This document shows, piece by piece, positions 52,538 to 53,275 of a stretch of 64,000 nucleotides of DNA. The DNA is from Anaerolineales bacterium (GTDB lineage: Bacteria > Chloroflexota > Anaerolineae > Anaerolineales > Villigracilaceae). Within the stretch, counting starts at the first letter, position 1. Every line of letters begins with the position of its first letter. The notes beneath the pieces are model-generated. The model was not told the origin of the DNA and did no database searches. It saw only the letters and a list, made by a program, of their open reading frames with translations. A program made the position numbers and the translations under genes. The stretch covers positions 62,001-126,000 of the forward strand of contig JAFGSI010000018.1 of NCBI GenBank assembly GCA_016934715.1. Direction: 5' to 3'.

Positions 52538-52711
52538 CAGGAACTCCCCTTCCATAGTAGAATGTGACCAGCGACGATGGGCTGCAGCACACCGCAAGGC
52601 GACCGGTGCTGGATCCTGTGATCTCCATGTTCAAGCGAGAAAGAACCTGGCGTTTCCTGTATTATACAATTAGACGCAAAGAGATGCTTGACAAATACGA
52701 AAGGAGTTCCA

Positions 52712-53275
52712 TTGAAAACCAAACTGCTCGTCACGCCGTCGGCCCTATGGATCGGCTTCCTCATCATGGCCGTCCTGAACATTTTCATGCTGATCGGGCT
52801 GCTCGTCGCCTATGGAGAACTGCTGTCCCTGCGCCGGCAGGCGGCCGATACGATCAGCAGCATGTCCACGGCACTGGAAGAGGTGAGATCCGGCACGTTT
52901 GAGTATGCCGTTCAGATCGACCAGGAGATCCCGATCAACGACGAGATCCCGATCGAGTTCGTCGTTCAGGTGCCAATCCATGCGACCATCCCGGTCAACA
53001 CCACCGTCAGCGTGCCGGTCGAGATCCCGCTCGTCGGGACGACGTACATTTCCATACCGATCATCGCCGACATCCCGATCAACCTGACCGTCGACGTTCC
53101 AGTTCGCCAGACGATCCCGATCGCTCTGCGCGTCCCGATCCAGATGGATGTGCCGATCAGCATCCAGATCGCCGACACCCCTCTGGCCCAGAGCCTGGCT
53201 CACCTGCAGGCGGTGCTCGATGAACTGGCAGCCGGGTTGCATGGATCCGCCGCTCGGGACCAGACCACCCCCTAA
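52712..53275 (+). CDS. Membrane protein with 14-residue Ile/Val-Pro repeats
   Basis: The 187-residue product has one membrane helix (about 12-34), a short coil (36-60) and then a run in which Pro occurs between Ile/Val/Leu residues at 74, 80, 88, 94, 102, 106, 116, 122, 130, 136, 142 and 148. The spacing is mostly 6 then 8, a 14-residue unit, ending near 150. The tail (155-187) is helical. The start is TTG at 52712, with AAGGAG seven bases upstream; a longer start is not supported. It may form a regular rod or solenoid outside the membrane. No known family recognised. Confidence 0.7.
   Translation: MKTKLLVTPSALWIGFLIMAVLNIFMLIGLLVAYGELLSLRRQAADTISSMSTALEEVRSGTFEYAVQIDQEIPINDEIPIEFVVQVPIHATIPVNTTVSVPVEIPLVGTTYISIPIIADIPINLTVDVPVRQTIPIALRVPIQMDVPISIQIADTPLAQSLAHLQAVLDELAAGLHGSAARDQTTP

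Follow-up and report, generated by a model that had tools for sequence, protein, structure and literature searches.

Is the open reading frame at 52712..53275 (+ strand) a real gene, and if so what fold do its regularly placed prolines describe? The frame lies in the window, as we call the whole stretch of 64,000 nucleotides of Anaerolineales DNA analysed here, and would encode a protein of 187 aa with a TTG start, in which an N-terminal helix is followed by a proline-rich region; these features are present in the sequence as an earlier note had described them. That note had read the prolines as a 14-residue unit belonging to no known family and had suggested a rod or solenoid outside the membrane. 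The best overall explanation, to which we assign a probability of about 40%, is a membrane-anchored hairpin that oligomerises face to face into a rod and serves as an envelope spacer or tether.

The gene and its family

Judged from its sequence, the ORF is genuine: the TTG codon is preceded at a distance of 5 nt by the Shine-Dalgarno-like sequence AAAGGAG (52700..52706, + strand), which includes GGAG, comparable sites lie ahead of the starts of orthologues, and relatives are under strong purifying selection, with dN/dS values of ~0.03-0.1 among Herpetosiphon-type orthologues and synonymous changes far outnumbering nonsynonymous ones. The TTG start itself is ordinary and adds nothing to the novelty that had been attached to it. 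In the flanks of the ORF no sigma-70 promoter scored above chance and no terminator was found.

Homologues were detected in 40 of 61 close genomes, in 66 of 400 genomes of the phylum using a close-family profile and in 99 of 298 genomes of the class using a long-form profile. They comprise two homologous forms: the window protein represents the short one, while the long one usually has in addition a Pro-rich tail in the cytoplasm and further strands at its tip. The short form aligned with the long-form family (A2) by hhalign with a probability of 98.9 and an E value of 1.6e-17 over 163 columns, and its profile score of 47.4 bits lay far above parity-keeping shuffles, none of which exceeded 18.8 bits. 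These profile comparisons indicate that the window protein is homologous to the long-form Chloroflexota hairpin family across the transmembrane (TM) segment, the arms and the C-terminal helix. The window genome carries both forms, the long one at G000:C38. Within its own family only 2 genomes out of 150 had a clear short form, the remaining matches there scoring like the long form; short forms also occur across other families and classes. Together the two forms are an uncharacterised membrane protein family that is Chloroflexota-wide.

The claim that no known family covers the region stands as far as Pfam, NCBIfam and PDB sequences are concerned: in these the window protein has no significant match and the family members none above cut-off; PRIMA1, BimA and PstC reached E values of 0.002-0.01 in single homologues and look like matches of composition. 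Literature searches found no described protein of this long-hairpin kind. A phage tail or collar beta fibre was rejected as no relatives were found in phage genomes: tblastn against 50,697 phage records gave no match, nor did plasmids, and among the BFVD viral structures matches were weak throughout (best E 2.2e-3). One unnamed PHROG gave E values of 3e-4 to 0.006; in the member that was inspected the match fell on the helix region.

No conserved gene neighbour or operon partner was common to the lineages examined, and the protein contains no enzyme motif. Around the long form several local arrangements were seen. In the window genome (C38; L190:7494-11174) the long-form paralogue is followed by two M16-type peptidase ORFs, an order repeated in members of the same family or order (L079, L080, L081, L091, L094 and L095). 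Elsewhere (L042, L043, L044 and L096) the next gene is either methyltransferase-like, its product starting with a CDYEGSDYQ-type N-terminus, or, in genomes of the Herpetosiphon/Roseiflexus type, encodes a HAD-type phosphatase. Only a few kb separate the long-form gene from the tuf-nusG-rplK-rplA-rplJ cluster in two distant Chloroflexota lineages (L079, L080, L092 and L093); the window genome's own long form is not near it. Linkage to an rRNA operon, suspected since many long forms sit at contig ends, was discarded, complete genomes showing tuf/nusG/rpl proximity in several lineages.

Proline pattern and predicted structure

The region of residues 65-152 holds exactly the twelve prolines previously counted (residues 74, 80, 88, 94, 102, 106, 116, 122, 130, 136, 142 and 148), each in a [VIL]P[VIL] context, with successive spacings of 6, 8, 6, 8, 4, 10, 6, 8, 6, 6 and 6. 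Compared with 20,000 shuffles, proline pairs are in excess both at lag 14 (6 against a mean of 1.25, p = 1e-4) and at lag 6 (6 against a mean of 1.39, p = 6e-4), whilst pairs at odd lags number 0. The proposed regularity is therefore borne out in these excesses but not as a uniform 14-residue unit, since the spacings are uneven and such a unit fits the first half of the region better than the second. The strict period is 2 rather than 14, because all twelve prolines fall on even residues and V/I/L/F/M occupy 36 of 45 odd positions against 3 of 45 even ones; this is the alternation of a beta-strand, with proline every 6 or 8 residues on the polar face. Among homologues a proline spacing of 6 is the commonest and 8 the second, and the arms of the long form lengthen by 6. 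The pattern is not lost in homologues: throughout the phylum the alternation persists and the arms retain their lengths.

AlphaFold2, run on the window protein with an alignment of 18 homologues, predicted helix at residues 9-59, strands at 62-105 and 109-152 and helix at 158-182 with a mean pLDDT of 83.7, a value to be read beside a pTM of only 0.39 and the shallowness of the alignments (18 and 33 sequences). The TM part of the first helix, approximately residues 9-34 (52736..52813, + strand), is marked by a hydrophobic segment and a charge bias as well as by the model, and the helix is predicted to continue outside the membrane over residues 35-59 (52814..52888, + strand). The N arm, a predicted strand of 44 residues (62-105; 52895..53026, + strand), agrees with the alternation and the proline parity. 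It leads through a turn at residues 106-108 (53027..53035, + strand), a region in which G109 is conserved in close orthologues, to a C arm likewise of 44 residues (109-152; 53036..53167, + strand), which the arm-length covariation of the long form also favours. A predicted C-terminal amphipathic helix (158-182; 53183..53257, + strand) closes the chain and equals the 35-59 helix in length.

The strand ends of the model imply a pairing of the arms in which residue numbers sum to 214, and because this sum is even the aliphatic residues of both arms would share one face. If straight, at the standard 0.33 nm per residue, a hairpin with 44-residue arms would be ~14 nm long. In the AlphaFold2 model of L160, the homologue with the longest arms, residues 67-75 pair with 194-202 at the base of the stem and 106-117 with 152-163 in the head, both in one register (i+j=269); the intervening stem has low confidence. 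A solenoid of 14-residue coils is rejected on the AlphaFold2 model together with the arm covariation, as the halves pair antiparallel in one register, that is, as a hairpin.

Covariation of arm lengths

Paired arms must change length together, and this was examined in 104 long-form homologues (L151-L153 were left out of the count) by measuring both arms between conserved anchors. N and C arm lengths were (23,28) in 80 proteins, (29,34) in 8, (35,40) in 8, (41,46) in 1 and (47,52) in 2, the 5 others differing from these pairs by 1-3 residues. The two lengths correlate with a Pearson r of 0.998 and a contrast r of 0.998, turn length is uncorrelated with the arms, and the number of extra hexapeptides (0, 1, 2, 3 or 4) is equal in both arms in 104 of 104 cases. 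None of 10,000 shuffles matched more than 6 of the 19 extended cases. Parsimony places ~7 joint changes on the tree, a number that is an estimate as the tree comes from the same alignment. Extended short forms, counted on their sequences, also lengthen on both sides (L009 by +20/+21, L015 by +18/+18). This covariation, an evolutionary signal read from alignments, is the best support for the hairpin. The length of the rod would have been tuned in evolution by gain or loss of matched hexapeptides in both arms.

Taken as a whole, a TM/coil helix, a single antiparallel hairpin and a C-terminal helix form a well-supported and very probable structure, and the architecture is unusually simple. The opposing view, that the region has no fold and its low complexity arose by accident, draws on its simple, repetitive composition, yet is highly improbable given that dN is well below dS, that the arms match exactly, that the short/long profile score far exceeds that of the parity-keeping shuffles and that the AlphaFold2 model is confident.

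Other features of the long form lie beyond the hairpin. Many members (L010-L029) have two conserved cysteines after the C-terminal helix (roughly C..L.P.A......P.C), which could possibly form a disulfide outside the membrane, and several (L125, L129, L132, L133, L134, L143 and L144) are extended at the C-terminus by ~100-150 residues in which a PWPGYS.TAG-like motif is conserved.

Topology and proposed role

Over the 20 positions that precede the TM segment, K/R average 3.7 in the short form and 4.6 in the long form, against 2.3 and 1.6 respectively after it. Because K/R are richer before the segment, the positive-inside rule would put the hairpin outside the membrane and leave the N-terminus in the cytoplasm. 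The suggestion of a rod outside the membrane is supported by these charges, from the predicted 44-residue hairpin and from the arm-length covariation.

We envisage a single-pass protein with a short cytoplasmic N-terminus and one helix that would cross the membrane and extend ~25 residues beyond it, from which the chain would run out and back as one antiparallel beta-hairpin before the C-terminal helix returns along the first. One face of this ribbon would be almost all Val/Ile/Leu and the other polar with proline, and the prolines, having no N-H groups, may spoil the outer edges against further sheet growth. Since a long one-sided aliphatic ribbon needs covering, we propose that copies pack face to face, burying their greasy sides and giving a stiff oligomeric rod, which could space or tether the cytoplasmic membrane relative to the outer envelope layers.

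Chloroflexota envelopes appear layered by cryo-ET without classical outer-membrane markers, LPS and Bam genes being absent (PMC7332563, PMC13319060), and their septal channels are of unknown composition, with no sepJ/fraC/fraD homologues found (PMC7332563). Such an envelope leaves room for structural parts not yet known. A spacer or tether rod in it is a tentative role, less likely than not, and the way in which the two strands lengthen jointly in six-residue steps suggests a rod or spacer of adjustable length. The patchiness of the short form within its own family ill suits an essential envelope part, for which the paralogue may cover. As a long shot, copies might build a straight envelope-spanning tube or scaffold whose length is set by hexapeptide number, a beta-hairpin molecular ruler, for example as part of the septal channel.

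Several of the Chloroflexota that have been studied grow as multicellular filaments whose outer layers are shared (PMC7332563, PMC13319060), which would accord with a cohesive or adhesive surface fibre, in which rods from adjacent cells, or adjacent copies, adhere through their aliphatic faces and aid filament or sheath formation. The protein looks too short to pass the outer layers, however, and we consider this improbable.

With the anchored spacer rod as the preferred reading, an uncharacterised phylum-wide membrane protein family is added to a disputed and poorly catalogued envelope. It comes with testable numbers: residues summing to 214 should touch, and the rod should measure ~14 nm, with the longest relatives up to ~8 nm longer. 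The exact hexapeptide matching is in addition a clean natural case of beta-hairpin length covariation, useful for work on repeat-protein evolution and for the design of stiff beta rods.

Comparison with known systems

Foldseek gave no confident match to solved structures; the loose matches are no evidence of a new fold, and novelty of fold is not claimed. The left-handed beta-helix (LbH) of hexapeptide proteins shares the six-residue rhythm with aliphatic positions, but it is built of parallel coils of three hexapeptides, whereas the model here is one antiparallel pair whose arms covary in length one to one. Pfam Hexapep matched neither the window protein (E <= 5) nor 26 + 18 homologues (E <= 0.01).

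In Acinetobacter, tandem TM-anchored beta-rich proteins likewise have a TM helix followed by IPI/VPL-rich alternating segments, and a profile match at 8e-11 in its genome stands above parity-keeping shuffles; they differ in their longer arms and in being two adjacent paralogues. Their sequences make them possibly related to the Chloroflexota family, common ancestry not being proven. The adjacent genes (L189:7108-8513 in Acinetobacter sp. ANC 3813, and L196) encode ~240 and 226 aa and adjoin a glyceraldehyde-3-phosphate dehydrogenase gene. The first was found in 21 of 41 sampled genomes of the genus and the second in all 21 of those; one relative is annotated 'MFS transporter', which looks wrong.

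Bridge proteins of the YdbH-YnbE and AsmA-like kind also set amphipathic beta structure on a membrane anchor reaching into the envelope. By analogy with such bridge-like lipid carriers, the continuous one-sided aliphatic face of 44 residues might let copies align as a groove or tube that moves lipids or greasy molecules from the membrane to the outer layers, and the Acinetobacter analogue does match a YnbE-like lipoprotein family at E 3e-4 (20.8 bits, under the curated cut-off of 25.8 bits). This is unlikely, if less so than the adhesive fibre: Chloroflexota members lack a YnbE-like match, the curated AsmA, YdbH and YnbE profiles have no match in the family, and no transport genes were found next door. 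Known carriers, moreover, lay many short strands across their long axis, unlike one hairpin along it, and the Chloroflexota protein, modelled as a monomer, is predicted to be a single hairpin, not a folded groove.

The closest solved folds are the pore stem hairpins of lysenin and aerolysin (Foldseek E 0.018-0.03, probability 0.15-0.47, TM 0.16, weak and not above background; structural alignment with lysenin Z 3.4 over 81 residues, rmsd 11.0). These top matches would fit an amphipathic hairpin that inserts into the membrane as a pore, like a beta-pore stem, or lies flat on it as a ribbon. We regard this as improbable, the matches being weak, the aliphatic face much longer than a bilayer, the edges that a barrel would need broken by proline, and the soluble binding domain absent; the 187 aa comprise only the N-terminal TM helix, the hairpin and the C-terminal helix, whereas pore formers of this type are secreted in soluble form and carry a binding domain. 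The anchored rod would share with these stems a very long antiparallel beta-hairpin of alternating aliphatic and polar residues, and would differ from them in being permanently helix-anchored, in having no soluble domain and in bearing a proline-marked aliphatic face of ~14 nm.
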